From the NCBI RefSeq assembly GCF_029531655.1, contig NZ_JANRMI010000003.1, forward strand, positions 434,001-498,000: 64,000 nt of DNA, in the 5' to 3' direction. Source of the DNA: Bdellovibrio svalbardensis (GTDB taxonomy: Bacteria; Bdellovibrionota; Bdellovibrionia; Bdellovibrionales; Bdellovibrionaceae). A program made the position numbers and the translations under genes. Under the pieces are notes generated by a model. That model saw nothing but the letters and a program-made list of their open reading frames with translations. It did no database searches and had not been told where the DNA came from. Below, piece by piece: positions 32,998 to 64,000 of this stretch (positions within the stretch are counted from its first letter, which is position 1; the number at the start of each line of letters is the position of its first letter).

Positions 32998-33999
32998 TTA
33001 TTCGCCCGCGGCTTTTTTGCGCTTTTGCGAACCGGTTTTTAACTCGACAACTTTACTGATTTCCGGCTTGTGAAAGCAAACCTGATTGCGGCCGCCGCGT
33101 TTTGCATCATAAAGGGCATGATCGGCTCTGCGCACTAGTTCACGAGCACTCAAAGACTCCCCTGGAATCGTAATCGCAAAGCCCAAAGAGGCCGTGAGCT
33201 TAATTGAATCTTCTTCTGTTTTAAACGTCGTCTTTTCAATATTCTCACGCAAACGCTGACAGAAATGCATAGCGCCTTCGTGATTGGTTTCAGTCAGCAC
33301 AACCAGGAATTCGTCACCGCCATAGCGCGCAGGAATATCGATATTGCGAGTGCAAGCTCGAATGATCTTACCCACCTCGGAAAGAACATAACTTCCGAAT
33401 AGATGATCATGACCATCATTTACAGTTTTAAAATAGTCCATATCCATCATCACGACGCAGACATCACGATTGAAACGTCTTGCACGCTCCATCTCGAAGT
33501 CAAGACGTTGATAGAGTGAGCGCATATTGTACAGACCCGTAAGATCATCGGTATCAACCAGCTCTTTGAGCCGCTCATTTGCATAGAGCAATTGCTCATT
33601 CAAATCACGAATGCGCAACTGTGTCCGAATGCGGGCGAGAAGTTCAAGAGGAACAAAAGGCTTTACGATGTAGTCGTCAGCTCCCGCATCCAGAGCTTCA
33701 ATGATCGCTTCGGTGCTTGAGTTCTCTGAAACGAAGACACAGGAAACATGAGCCAGACGTTCGCGCACCGTTTTCAAAACACGCAAACCCGCCATTGATG
33801 GCGCCATCCAATCCAAAATCACAACATGAGGAACCCACGACTCAATCAACTTATGGGCATCTGCTTCCGTGGTTACACCACGGGCATCGTAGCCTTCCCA
33901 ACGGAGAGGCTCGAGCAAGATTTCCATGCTGTCTTGGTCATCGTCGATTACTAGAATGCGGCGACTTTTTGGATGTTTAATAGTGCCCTCGAAATTCAT
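32998..33999 (-). CDS. Response regulator diguanylate cyclase (REC-GGDEF)
   Basis: In the 333-residue protein the receiver domain (about 14-130) has VIDDDQDSME, phospho-Asp in VVILDWMAPS and IVKPF. A short coiled coil (RDLNEQLLYANERLKELV) leads to a GGDEF domain with intact RYGGDEFLVVL. The inhibitory I-site RNID stands five residues before GGDEF. So this is a c-di-GMP synthase controlled by phosphorylation and product feedback, like PleD without the second REC domain. Confidence 0.93.
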   Translation of the reverse strand: MNFEGTIKHPKSRRILVIDDDQDSMEILLEPLRWEGYDARGVTTEADAHKLIESWVPHVVILDWMAPSMAGLRVLKTVRERLAHVSCVFVSENSSTEAIIEALDAGADDYIVKPFVPLELLARIRTQLRIRDLNEQLLYANERLKELVDTDDLTGLYNMRSLYQRLDFEMERARRFNRDVCVVMMDMDYFKTVNDGHDHLFGSYVLSEVGKIIRACTRNIDIPARYGGDEFLVVLTETNHEGAMHFCQRLRENIEKTTFKTEEDSIKLTASLGFAITIPGESLSARELVRRADHALYDAKRGGRNQVCFHKPEISKVVELKTGSQKRKKAAGE

Positions 34000-34101
34000 C
34001 TTACATACCAGTGTAACTTCAGAGCTTCTTCTCGGTTAATTTGTCGATTTTATTTAGGACAAAATCTCTTCCTACGTCTGTCCTTCGACTTAGATCTCGG
34101 T

Positions 34102-34237
34102 CGGGTTCAGAGGGCTGGGAGAGCTGCACTCATCGCTTCGGACAGTCCTCGCTCGACTGGGCTTGGGTCTTGAAGTAGACCTTTGCCGAGCTTGCGGAAC
34201 TCGCGCTGAGTGCAGCTCTCCCAGCCCTCTGAGCCCG
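34102..34237. repeat. 31-bp inverted repeat enclosing three small hairpins (cloverleaf-capable element)
   Basis: Arms 34102-34132 and 34207-34237 pair over 31 positions, with one T/G pair (34106/34233). The 74-base interior can form CAGTC/GACTG (34143-34159), GGTCT/AGACC (34166-34181) and CGAG/CTCG (34187-34203). It lies in the 396-base gap between the divergent GGDEF gene and leuS, which otherwise holds only the leuS promoter. No T-box or known riboswitch motif is seen. It may be a structured RNA or a small MITE-like repeat. Confidence 0.85.
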
Positions 34238-34271
34238 CGAAATTTATGTCTTTGATGTGTGTTCTTAGGGT

Positions 34272-34300
34272 TTGAATTGTTGTGAAATTTTCGGTATTTA
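34272..34300 (+). promoter_or_regulatory. Candidate leuS promoter
   Basis: TTGAAT (34272-34277) and TATTTA (34295-34300) are separated by 17 bases. Transcription would begin about 34308 and exclude the cloverleaf element. Confidence 0.45.
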
Positions 34301-34395
34301 CATAGAGGTTCAAAGAAGCTTTTTGGGAAGTTTTGCGTGAGTGGGATTTTCTGGGGGTTTTCTTCGCTTTTTTATTTTTTGTGGAGCGTGTTTTT

Positions 34396-36831
34396 ATGGG
34401 TTTGAATTTTAGTGAGTATGAATCGAAGTGGCAGAAAAAGTGGGCTGAGGCTAAAGCGTTTCAAGCTGAGACGACTTCTGCGAAGCCTAAGTATTATGCT
34501 TTAGATATGTTTCCTTATCCTTCTGGATCGGGGCTGCATATTGGGCATATGGCTTCTTATACTCCGGGGGATATTGTTTCGCGCTACAAACGTGTAAATG
34601 GTTTCAATGTTCTTCATCCGATGGGCTATGATGCGTTTGGTTTGCCGGCTGAGCAGTATGCTATTCAAACTGGAATTCATCCCGCTATCACAACTGATAA
34701 GGCTATTGCCAGCTTCCGCAAAACACTTCAGTCATTTGGGTTTAGCTTTGACTGGAGTCGTGAGATTTCCACTTGCGAGCCTAAGTACTACAAGTGGACT
34801 CAATTTATTTTCTTGAAACTCTATGAGCGCGGACTGGCTTATCAAAAAGAAGTTCCTGTGAACTGGTGTCCAGCTTTGAAAACTGTTTTGGCCAACGACG
34901 AAGTCATCGATGGAAAATCAGAGCGTGGTGGACATCCGGTCATTCGCGTTCCAATGAAACAGTGGATGCTTAAAATCACTGATTATGCGGAACGCCTTTT
35001 GAATGATCTGGATAAAGTCGATTGGCCTGAACGCACGAAAGAGGCACAACGCAATTGGATTGGAAAATCTGAAGGCGCGCGCATCACTTTCAAAATTGAA
35101 GGAGAGAGTGAAACCTTTGAAGTCTTCACCACCCGCCCTGACACTTTGTTTGGCGTAACTTTTATGGTGATGGCTCCAGAACATCCACTTGTTAAAAAAA
35201 TCACTTCTCAGCCGCAGCATGCTGCTGTCGAAGATTATGTTTTGGCGACTTCTCGTAAATCTGAAGTTGATAGAAAAGCGACGACTGACAAAACCGGTGT
35301 TTTCACCGGTGCTCATGCTCTTCACCCAATCACGGGAGAGAAAATTGAGATCTGGATTGCTGACTATGTTCTGACTGATTACGGTACCGGTGCAATCATG
35401 GCAGTTCCTGGTCATGATGCTCGCGATTTTGAGTTCGCGAAGAAATTCAATTTACCGGTGAAGAGAGTCCTGTCTCCAGCCGCCTCTGGCGGTGGTGAAG
35501 GTGGCGATGAGTTGCCTTTCGAAGGCGAAGGCACGTTAGTGAATTCTGATTTCTTGAATGGTCTTTCTAAAGCAGAGGCCATCAAGAAAATGCTTTCTCA
35601 CTTGGAATCTAAAAAATTAGGAATTCGCGAAGTTCAATACAAGCTTCGTGATTGGCTCTTCAGCCGCCAACGTTACTGGGGTGAGCCCTTCCCTATTGTG
35701 AACTTCCCGAAAGCAGGTCAATTGGGCGTCCCTGTGAACGAACTTCCTGTGATGCTTCCAGAAGTGGCGGACTACGAGCCATCAGATTCGGGTGAAGCTC
35801 CGTTGGCAAAGATCGCTGACTGGGTGAACTATGCTGGCAAACCTGGATTTGGCGAAGGCGAACAAGGCCGTCGCGAAACAGACACGATGCCAGGTGCTGC
35901 CGGTTCTTCTTGGTACTTCCTTCGCTACATCGACCCGAACAACGACAAGGCTCCGTTCAGCCCTGACGCTGAAAAATACTGGATGCCGGTAGATTTGTAC
36001 GTCGGCGGGCCGGAACATACTGTGGGTCACTTGCTGTACTCTCGTTTCTGGATGAAGGTGCTTTTTGATGTGGGCTTGGTCACTCATGATGAGCCTTTCA
36101 AAAAACTGGCTCACCAAGGGATGATTTTGGGACCTGACGGTCAGAAGATGTCAAAGTCTCGTGGCAATGTGATTTCTCCGGAAGAGATCGCAAAAACTCA
36201 CGGCGCTGACTCGATCCGAACTTTCATCAGCTTCATGGGGCCTTTGGATACCGACAAACCTTGGTCTCCGACAGGAATTGATGGCGTGAAGCGCTTCTTG
36301 GACCGTGTGGGTCGCTTGGTTGTGACTGACGACGGTCAATACGTGGCGACGAAGGATGCTTTGCCGCCAGCGACTGAGAAATTACTTCATAAAACCATCA
36401 AAAAGGTCACAGAAGACATCGAGAGCATGAGCTTCAATACAGCCATTGCGGCGATGATGATCCTCGTAAATGACCTGTATAAGGCAGAATGCCGCTCGGA
36501 ATTAGCTCTCAAACCTTTGACGCAGATCCTGGCTCCTTTTGCTCCCCATTTGGCAGAAGAATTGTGGGAAAAATTGGGCGGAACGGGACTTTGCTCTTTG
36601 GCTCCATGGCCAAAATATGATAGTACCCTCTGCGCTGATGACACTGTAACTATTGGCGTGCAGGTGAACGGAAAAATGCGCGGCACGATTGAGCTGGGCG
36701 TGACGGCTTCCGAAGAGGAAGCACTTGCGGCGGCGAAAGAAGTTTCAACTGTTGCAGCTGTTCTTGCTGGTAAAAATCCCGATAAGGTGATCTACAAAGC
36801 AGGAAAAATTTTGAACTTGATTGTTAAATAG
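34396..36831 (+). CDS. leuS: Leucyl-tRNA synthetase
   Basis: The 811-residue class I synthetase shows PYPSGSGLHIGHMASYTPGD (HIGH), an editing domain in the middle (TTRPDTLFGVTFMVMAPEHP; GTGAIMAVPGHD), KLRDWLFSRQRYWGEP, the leucine-specific and zinc-like insertion, and KMSKSRGN near residue 600. It charges tRNA-Leu and edits mischarged amino acids. The frame opens at 34333. ATG 34396 follows GTGGAGCG and begins MGLNFSEYESKWQ, the family start. Confidence 0.97.
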   Translation: MGLNFSEYESKWQKKWAEAKAFQAETTSAKPKYYALDMFPYPSGSGLHIGHMASYTPGDIVSRYKRVNGFNVLHPMGYDAFGLPAEQYAIQTGIHPAITTDKAIASFRKTLQSFGFSFDWSREISTCEPKYYKWTQFIFLKLYERGLAYQKEVPVNWCPALKTVLANDEVIDGKSERGGHPVIRVPMKQWMLKITDYAERLLNDLDKVDWPERTKEAQRNWIGKSEGARITFKIEGESETFEVFTTRPDTLFGVTFMVMAPEHPLVKKITSQPQHAAVEDYVLATSRKSEVDRKATTDKTGVFTGAHALHPITGEKIEIWIADYVLTDYGTGAIMAVPGHDARDFEFAKKFNLPVKRVLSPAASGGGEGGDELPFEGEGTLVNSDFLNGLSKAEAIKKMLSHLESKKLGIREVQYKLRDWLFSRQRYWGEPFPIVNFPKAGQLGVPVNELPVMLPEVADYEPSDSGEAPLAKIADWVNYAGKPGFGEGEQGRRETDTMPGAAGSSWYFLRYIDPNNDKAPFSPDAEKYWMPVDLYVGGPEHTVGHLLYSRFWMKVLFDVGLVTHDEPFKKLAHQGMILGPDGQKMSKSRGNVISPEEIAKTHGADSIRTFISFMGPLDTDKPWSPTGIDGVKRFLDRVGRLVVTDDGQYVATKDALPPATEKLLHKTIKKVTEDIESMSFNTAIAAMMILVNDLYKAECRSELALKPLTQILAPFAPHLAEELWEKLGGTGLCSLAPWPKYDSTLCADDTVTIGVQVNGKMRGTIELGVTASEEEALAAAKEVSTVAAVLAGKNPDKVIYKAGKILNLIVK

Positions 36832-39022: not shown

Positions 39023-39664
39023 ATGCCAAGAAAACAACAAATATACACTTCAGAGTTCCCGTATCACATATCAGCGCGGTGCCACAATAAGGAATGGTTT
39101 GGTCTTCCTTTGGAAGAGGTTTGGGCCACAATGTCGAATTATCTATTTTTTATTTCAACAGCCTACAAAATTGAAATTCACTCTTTCGTTCTTATGAACA
39201 ACCACTTTCATCTTATTGCCAGGTTTCCCGAAAACAACATGTCAGAGGCGATGAATTATTTTATGCGAGAGACTTCTAGAGTCATTTCTAGATCCTCTAT
39301 GCGAATCAATCAAACTTACGGCGGAAGATATTTTCGTTCAGCCATCACCAAACCTCATTATCTTGAGCACGTGTATAAGTATGTTTACAGAAATCCCATC
39401 GAAGCTGGTCTTGCTTCAAATGCTGAAGAGTATCCTTACAGCACACTCTCGATTCTTCTTGGCAAGAAAAATGGAATAATCCCACTAATTCGTGACCCTC
39501 GCCTCGAACCGAAACTGCTGGAATCTACCTTGAGATGGCTTAATAAAAAGCCTGTTAGCGAAGACAAAGAAGAGGTCCGAAAAGCTTTAAGAAAACCTCA
39601 ATTCACGTTAACAACGAAGGCAAAAAATATGTTCGTACACCATCTTGAGGTAGACCGATTGTAG
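39023..39664 (+). CDS. REP-associated tyrosine transposase (RAYT, Y1 family)
   Basis: The 213-residue single-strand transposase of the IS200/IS605-related Y1 family has the metal-binding HUH-type motif HFHLI in LMNNHFHLIARFPE (near residue 67). The likely nucleophile Tyr is in KYVYRNPIEAGL (near 125), and GGRYFRSAI lies between. Unlike IS200 it is a lone chromosomal gene flanked by short inverted copies of GGTACCTGCTTCC, as expected of RAYTs, which act on REP hairpins. No intact insertion sequence ends are seen. Confidence 0.88.
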   Translation: MPRKQQIYTSEFPYHISARCHNKEWFGLPLEEVWATMSNYLFFISTAYKIEIHSFVLMNNHFHLIARFPENNMSEAMNYFMRETSRVISRSSMRINQTYGGRYFRSAITKPHYLEHVYKYVYRNPIEAGLASNAEEYPYSTLSILLGKKNGIIPLIRDPRLEPKLLESTLRWLNKKPVSEDKEEVRKALRKPQFTLTTKAKNMFVHHLEVDRL

Positions 39665-50202: not shown

Positions 50203-50239
50203 GGTGCCTGCCATCTTTTCCGAAAAGATGGCAGGCACC
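50203..50239. repeat. 37-bp perfect palindrome GGTGCCTGCC...
   Basis: GGTGCCTGCCATCTTTTC (50203-50220) and its exact complement (50222-50239) meet around one C. It lies in the 113-base gap between the Sua5-type gene and the end of the FtsX-like gene. No T-run follows, so it does not look like a plain terminator. It shares CAGGCACC and TTTTCCGAAAA with the cluster at 47341-47396. Confidence 0.9.
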
Positions 50240-61535: not shown

Positions 61536-61626
61536 GGAGGGTTGGCCGAGTGGCTGAAGGCGCTCGCTTGGAAAGCGAGTTTACACCAAAAGTGTAACGC
61601 GAGTTCGAATCTCGCATCCTCCGCCA
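61536..61626 (+). tRNA. tRNA-Ser (GGA)
   Basis: Acceptor GGAGGGT (61536-61542) pairs with ATCCTCC (61616-61622); G is the discriminator and CCA is encoded. The anticodon stem CTCGC/GCGAG holds loop TTGGAAA with anticodon GGA. A long variable arm (TTACACCAAAAGTGTAA), typical of serine tRNAs, and GTTCGAATC T-loop follow. The 3' half is read through by the recombinase gene on the other strand. Confidence 0.96.
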
Positions 61627-63488: not shown

Positions 63489-64000
63489 TTATCCACATTT
63501 CTTTAACTCACTACTTACACTAAACGCCCTCATTCCATCCCCCTCTCGGTTCTCTACTCCTGACCCCTTACCACCACTCGTTGGGGGTGAGGGGTCAGGA
63601 GTAGAGAACCCGCCACGCAGTGGCGCTGGAAAGAGGGAGTTGGGTTGTAAATCCGAGGGCTTAGGTGTTGCTTCCAACTGCTCCCCCGGATCGTTTTGCC
63701 TGCTCACCCCTTGAGCGGGGGTGTGAGCGGGGGAACTGATCGTTAGATGATCAAATAAGATCCGCGTTAACGGCATCCATTCAGGTTCTTGAATAGGATA
63801 GATATCGGGTATTGGTTCTTTCAAAAAATTTGAAGTAATTGAAAAGAACAGATTGCCTTCATCAAAACCGAAGGTTCTTTCTGCGGCCTGATATATTTTG
63901 AAAAGATCCTTGGTGTCGTTTACGAAGTACCAAATGATGTCGTAACGAAGATCTTTGTATTCCCTGAATATGCGCTTGTAACGTGCTTCACTTTTCCTGG
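63489..64000 (-). CDS. Partial gene of the integrated element, 5' end outside the window
   Basis: The frame is open from the window end to the stop at 63489 (170 codons). The visible part begins RKSEARYKRIFREYKDLRYDII, continues WYFVNDTKDLFKIYQAAERTFG, and then becomes Pro/Ser/Gly-rich to the end. A folded domain with a disordered tail is likely. The first part resembles the end of replication-relaxation-type proteins, but that is a weak impression. The tail DNA contains a long hairpin. Confidence 0.6.
   Translation of the reverse strand, partial: RKSEARYKRIFREYKDLRYDIIWYFVNDTKDLFKIYQAAERTFGFDEGNLFFSITSNFLKEPIPDIYPIQEPEWMPLTRILFDHLTISSPAHTPAQGVSRQNDPGEQLEATPKPSDLQPNSLFPAPLRGGFSTPDPSPPTSGGKGSGVENREGDGMRAFSVSSELKKCG
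63548..63610. repeat. Long inverted repeat in the 3' part of the partial gene
   Basis: GGTTCTCTACTCCTGACCCC plus T (63548-63568) pairs exactly with 63590-63610. After one T/G mismatch the pairing continues for three more bases. A second imperfect hairpin, GCTCACCCC / GGGGTGTGAGC, lies at 63703-63731. Confidence 0.8.

Follow-up and report, generated by a model that had tools for sequence, protein, structure and literature searches.

The long inverted repeat upstream of leuS in Bdellovibrio svalbardensis is one member of a family of palindromic DNA elements that seems not to have been described before and occurs in two distant phyla. That the family is real and crosses phyla is nearly certain. 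The unit of conservation is a head held inside the arms, and not the 136-bp cloverleaf of an earlier note on this DNA. On balance we favor reading it as a palindromic DNA element that bears this head and has its arms rewritten by DNA synthesis templated on the hairpin. A search of openly licensed PMC papers found neither a description of the head family nor the head words as text.

Within the 64-kb stretch of DNA analysed (the window), the arms lie at 34102–34132 and 34207–34237, the right arm being the reverse complement of the left on the plus strand. They form 31 contiguous pairs with a single non-Watson-Crick pair, T34106·G34233, exactly as had been noted. The regularity, thought too great for chance, is indeed so: as RNA, the 136 bases reach −99 kcal/mol, whereas 200 dinucleotide shuffles average −54.8 and none of them goes as low (z −10.6), and the repeat tops the 12 inverted repeats scoring at least 13 in a scan of the window, with a score of 31 and a runner-up of 25. 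The three small hairpins described inside the arms were not recovered as clean hairpins. At minimum energy this part forms a single 3-bp hairpin and a long irregular stem, the three hairpins are not conserved, and the enclosed sequence differs between copies except for two head motifs. Reading inward on the plus strand, the left arm ends in TCGC (34133–34136), of which the final GC pairs with the GC at 34203–34204. It is followed by the left half of the conserved head, TTCGGACAGTCCTCGCTCG (34137–34155), a variable loop (34156–34189) that places this copy in the middle of three genus-wide classes of head-motif spacing, the right half of the head, GCTTGCGGAACTC (34190–34202), and the inner end of the right arm, GCGC (34203–34206). 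Both halves of the head were delimited in an alignment of copies (A3), the right half with its position taken from the arm pairing.

The element sits between divergent genes, a response regulator with a GGDEF domain (32998–33999, minus strand; Pfam PF00072 and PF00990) and the leucyl-tRNA synthetase gene leuS (34396–36831, plus strand; Pfam). No terminator-like site was found in 33900–34500, and the single promoter-like site near the element is on the opposite strand (0.4 expected). Since this copy lies between two divergent genes, it is probably not chiefly a terminator or a leuS leader; for the leader, the earlier note had said the same. A simple terminator was rejected for the leuS copy, which has no terminator-like site, while some other copies have terminator-like loops. 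An element occupies the same place upstream of leuS, with unlike arms, in 11 of the 23 assessable genus genomes (24 were compared, and G014 was left out as not assessable).

BLAST of the 136 bp found no second sequence-like copy in the same genome, and the weak matches in relatives mostly pile on one stretch of about 20 bp. The loci of these relatives have a common head, with (C)TTCGGACAGTCCTCGC on the left and GCTGCGGAACTYG on the right, also written TTCGGACAGTCCTCGC ... GCGGAACTYG, and arms that differ per locus yet are complementary. A copy is laid out as arm - YTCRRAC - AGTCCTCGC - loop - GCTGCGGAACT - Y - arm′, an asymmetric hairpin head. Two schemes of pairing within the head can be drawn, either TTC:GAA plus CAG:CTG or AGTCC with GGAACT and a bulged A; the second is that seen in the folds of copies from other families. 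The spacing of the head motifs in 92 genus elements is 25–30 (14 elements), 38–46 (37) or 73–78 (39), while one element has a spacing of 7 and another is unassigned. Loops vary in sequence, and several long ones hold a terminator-like hairpin plus a T run.

Other copies, which the earlier note had proposed to look for, are many. Of the 37 middle-class elements, 29 went into a covariance model; the other 8 rows, in which the head lacks one base or is shifted, were excluded for register. The model detects 9 copies in the same genome and 2–21 copies in each of 23 of the 24 Bdellovibrio genomes. A 20-mer head pattern with up to 3 mismatches also matches 23 of the 24, and its reversed control gave few matches. 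Under stricter filters, an order-wide search gave matches in 39 of 140 genomes and 16 of 65 genera. Thirty loci outside the genus came from 16 genomes, and the 27 examined (3 at contig ends were left out) have the head in common and unrelated arms, the left motif being less exact in L231 and L238. Across the phylum, at least 37 of 368 genomes have matches, further families included, which is an undercount since 9 candidates were scored per genome. The left head motif also occurs in Coriobacteriia. An exact 18-mer is present in 15 stretches from contigs of 84,980 species, of which 4 in Bdellovibrio and 3 in Coriobacteriia have arms scoring at least 16; the other 8 do not. Two Coriobacteriia genomes hold 17 and 5 model matches, and 89 of 197 sampled Coriobacteriia genomes have matches at 1e-4; a genome behind L057 gave none. 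Phages were searched by BLAST with the leuS-upstream element, and nothing was found. A viral source was dropped, as no stretch matched the short-spacer form of the head and the 2 that matched a 17-mer lack long arms when folded. A link to DUF3800 was likewise abandoned, the match on a Methanothermobacter plasmid being a different hairpin with only CTCGCTTCGCTCG-type letters in common. On that plasmid (pFV1; L288, about 1100–1160) an unrelated hairpin with a CTCGCTTCGCTCGCT tip lies upstream of a DUF3800 gene.

The arms are held together by pairing and not by sequence. In the alignment of 29 sequences, 92.4% of cells are paired, against 52.7% with shuffled partners and 35–47% when one side is slid by 1–3 columns; covariation is 0.967 against 0.185 when shuffled, both sides change at 31 of 32 arm positions, and most positions show all four kinds of Watson-Crick pair. 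Because arms are unrelated between loci, this count alone attests pairing, and compensatory evolution has to be read from orthologous copies. In an arm-to-arm BLAST of 65 arms, every match joins what is apparently the same locus in different species, and among words common inside arms none is clearly beyond Markov expectation, apart from words of tRNA ends.

Orthologous copies show many paired changes; with the many copies found, this goes against two of the three findings by which the earlier note would have been refuted. Thirty orthologous pairs (22 from Bdellovibrio, 8 from Collinsella) give 923 comparable base pairs, not counting 73 positions where the reference copy is unpaired, 24 that are out of register and 14 gaps. 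Of these pairs, 121 have changed. In 94 the two sides have changed together into another Watson-Crick pair, in 4 both have changed and are mismatched, and in 23 a single side has changed (to G·T in 6, to A·C in 8 and otherwise in 9). If the two sides changed independently, 13.0 double changes would be expected, 4.3 of them Watson-Crick. These counts rest on alignments that favor identity, with arms defined by pairing in one genome of each two. The rate of change is very uneven, since some arms, those of L123/L141 among them, hardly differ from one species to the next. When the HD100-like genome (G006) is compared with its neighbor G002, arm identity ranges from 54% to 100% and loop identity from 74 to 100%; at three loci both arms are essentially replaced, with a loop still 74–87% identical. 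The same is found in Collinsella, where arms are wholly or partly replaced and the loop and flanks stay similar. An indel is matched on both arms in L311/L321, clustered two-arm changes keep complementarity in L305/L319 and L302/L308, and the head is inverted between sister genomes in L304/L318. Mismatches are rare at a distance of 10–22 pairs from the head and more frequent both beyond it and in the few pairs next to the head.

Such changes could be produced in RNA or in DNA. In the first case the family would be a structured RNA (a 3′ UTR, an antiterminator or a processing stem) whose pairing is kept by compensatory mutation, and the strong covariation of the arms speaks for it, as do the many copies just past a stop codon or a tRNA 3′ end, the hairpin plus T-run terminators in the loops of the ahcY copies (L118, L171, L013) and others, and the six Ts found in 33 of 174 loops. 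However, the kinds of pair found fit it poorly. Among 174 distinct elements from three groups, arm pairs number 5571 Watson-Crick, 81 G·T, 115 A·C and 258 other, with G·T and A·C scored alike. An RNA stem under selection should tolerate G·U in the strand that is transcribed, yet G·T is near absent, no commoner than A·C, and the one-sided intermediates of stepwise RNA stem evolution are rare; DNA copying therefore fits better. Moreover, 27 of the 91 genus copies classified by simple ORF calls, the leuS group included, lie between divergent genes. The 18 copies compared from the HD100-like genome overlap none of the 8 attack-phase sRNAs tabulated in Table 2 of PMC3627812. Rfam 15 has no family at gathering threshold on the element, in keeping with the earlier view that it is not a T-box, and the weak matches to miRNA precursors reflect the long stem. 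The arms thus lean against an RNA stem, and we regard this explanation as unlikely. Nevertheless, transcripts may also use the structure, since some class-C and Coriobacteriia loops hold terminator-like or conserved apical hairpins.

It is likely, instead, that the arms are maintained and diversified as DNA, by templating. Template switching is described in parts of the literature as homogenising the arms of inverted repeats and inverting their spacers (PMC8604942), and as making multibase compensatory changes (PMC8794818). Clustered two-arm changes that keep complementarity are what the 94 of 121 changed pairs amount to. We infer, with good though not full confidence, that the arms are written and rewritten by fold-back template switching. 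One strand would fold back at the head, and the polymerase would switch template and copy one arm into the other. Templated rewriting of this kind would keep the arms perfect, alter several neighboring pairs at once, and could invert the head. At times, the copying might extend to host sequence beyond the arm and leave inverted copies of host ends.

Copies of host ends are present. Many elements lie directly after a stop codon or a tRNA 3′ end, and among the 91 genus elements with enough flank, 12 begin at a tRNA 3′ end (11 tRNA-Leu, 1 tRNA-Arg), several of the 12 being the same gene in different species. The right arm of L122/L138 repeats about 20 nt of the tRNA-Leu(gag) 3′ end in inverted form, with a few mismatches. 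Collinsella L313 and its counterparts carry, in the distal part of the right arm, an inverted GACCGCGTGCTGCATCTC, the final codons (DRVLHL) of a 493-aa open frame that presumably has an NrdD-type C-terminus. Since these gene ends have a function of their own, it is the opposite arm that is the copy. Further neighbors include rpoN, lgt, dnaJ, ahcY, a thiolase and a penicillin-binding protein. An origin of the arms as CRISPR-like spacers, which they resemble in length, was considered and rejected: orthologous arms change gradually, and tRNA ends are included.

The tRNA genes that bear an element are all for Leu or Arg, in more than one genus (L122, L128, L161, L165, L181, L227, L230, L244), and leuS likewise bears one. 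At the ahcY 3′ end, three Bdellovibrio species (L118, L171, L013; ahcY by Pfam in the first two, and inferred from position and sequence in L013) carry an element with loops of different classes. In two of the three, L013 and L171, a T-tract terminator could arise by pairing between the loop and the head itself.

Whether the element moves is a further matter. Alternatively, it could be a non-mobile DNA site, such as a cruciform or a target of gyrase, a nuclease or a recombinase, that serves chromosome structure, replication or recombination, is inherited vertically and is exchanged by conversion. Its positions are conserved across the genus (leuS, ahcY, tRNA-Leu), a second genus likewise carries it at tRNA-Leu(taa) and tRNA-Arg(tct) (L230, L244), and loop alleles switch between sister species at one locus. 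Against this stand a copy number that ranges from 0 to 21 within the genus Bdellovibrio and the Collinsella copies at unrelated loci, which have in common the head and an 11-bp inner stem (e.g. GGTTAAGTTTG) and differ in their outer arms; this suggests recent spread of the head plus inner stem. We give the non-mobile site only a small chance. That the head is kept by a protein reading the folded DNA hairpin, and that the head with a short inner stem spreads as a small non-autonomous or selfish element, is to us a guess with slightly less than even odds. A head spreading in this way would settle between genes and at gene and tRNA 3′ ends. More doubtful, though conceivable, is a new class of mobile DNA in which the head primes its own fold-back synthesis, writes the reverse complement of neighboring host sequence as the second arm, and keeps overwriting both; each copy would then make its own locus-specific stem after landing.

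No clean insertion of the element was caught among the loci compared. Empty sites were seen in L120/L176, L140/L178 and L303/L320, and they fit loss as well or better. In L303/L320, loss is the likelier event since a remnant of one arm is left in the near-empty genome and the element is present in a third species; an inverted duplication at a caught insertion, for which this was the best case, was given up once the third species had been read. In L120/L176, the empty genome has a plain hairpin at the site.

Two side observations concern Collinsella. L293/L294 and L296 are the same locus with the same arms and two alleles of the apical hairpin, GCTC-GCACGAAG.. and GCGCAAGACGAAG..; each allele also occurs at other loci, so that this looks like conversion between copies. 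L291, L292 and L297 have arms, loop and one flank in common, and their other flank diverges just outside the arm, as if a rearrangement had broken at the element.

Among known mobile repeats, the nearest likeness is to REP, BIME and REPIN sequences (TnpA-REP, RAYT), which are described in part of PMC8266576 as short, dispersed, intergenic palindromic repeats with bulged hairpins. The element is likewise short, dispersed, intergenic, palindromic and bulged, and Y1_Tnp genes occur in 21 of the 24 genus genomes, one of them (IS200-like/RAYT-type, window 39023–39664) 4.8 kb from the leuS-upstream element. A REP/BIME-like element with unusually long arms, mobilised by a Y1 transposase, is thus conceivable. 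However, it is the tip of the element that is conserved rather than the foot or the arms, which are locus-specific and 20–50 bp long, and the REP-type GTAG at the hairpin foot is found in 8 of 174 elements, with about 12 expected by chance. Nor is there a strict link to Y1: no Y1_Tnp was found in G008, G013 and G017, which carry 5, 8 and 5 copies, and one was found in G004, which has no element. Y1 transposases do not track the element, no protein is linked to it, and this explanation is quite improbable. A 15-bp inverted repeat (39524–39654) overlaps the 3′ part of the Y1_Tnp gene in the window.

Integron attC sites likewise fold into a hairpin that conserves certain unpaired bases, ends in a variable loop and has paired arms of variable sequence. 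The element is like them in all of this, but its conserved boxes lie on the tip side, and its copies are dispersed and not in cassette arrays; the R-box pair RYYYAAC ... GTTRRRY is absent from the leuS-upstream element and present in 1 of the 174. Like a MITE, the element is small, non-coding and dispersed with inverted arms. It is nevertheless no classical MITE, because the arms are not common to copies and no target-site duplication of at least 4 bp was seen in 174 elements (none has a 4- to 9-bp direct repeat at the ends detected for its arms, though the true ends may lie elsewhere). The earlier note had offered a structured RNA, a MITE or a DNA structure; a repeat or DNA structure stands, the classical MITE does not, and the RNA stem is leaned against, as above. 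Quasipalindrome correction by template switch, as far as it is covered in the sources cited above, resembles the changes found here in arm homogenisation, clustered multi-base changes and spacer inversion, yet it is otherwise a mutation process at ordinary repeats, whereas here it seems to operate all through a repeat family with a head conserved across phyla. Long near-perfect palindromes whose arms stay complementary are described for nematomorph mitochondria in part of PMC6649704; as described there they resemble the element in their arms, but they are mitochondrial, lie within genes (coding) and have no common head. Every known kind tested fails a defining feature, and the family is therefore judged categorically new. 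A sceptic could place it as a variant within "interspersed palindromic repeat", which is a broad known category.

If the rewriting of arms by DNA synthesis is right, covariation, the standard proof of RNA structure, would here come mainly from DNA copying, and elements of this kind would be mistaken for RNA genes. The family, which extends over Bdellovibrionota and Coriobacteriia, would be rewriting gene and tRNA ends, and some protein or process would be reading the head. The family would also offer a natural system in which to measure template switching at perfect palindromes in bacteria.

Other repeats lie in the same window. The sole Rfam match at threshold is a tRNA gene (61536–61623). 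A perfect 18-bp palindrome, GGTGCCTGCCATCTTTTC, is found at 50203–50239, and GGTRCCTG-type repeats, which also adjoin L115/L143, may be a separate REP family of the genus. A second very long and near-perfect hairpin, with 29-bp arms, a 5-nt loop and no head, lies at 63548–63610 and is possibly a relative of the element, like the plain hairpin at the L176 site.
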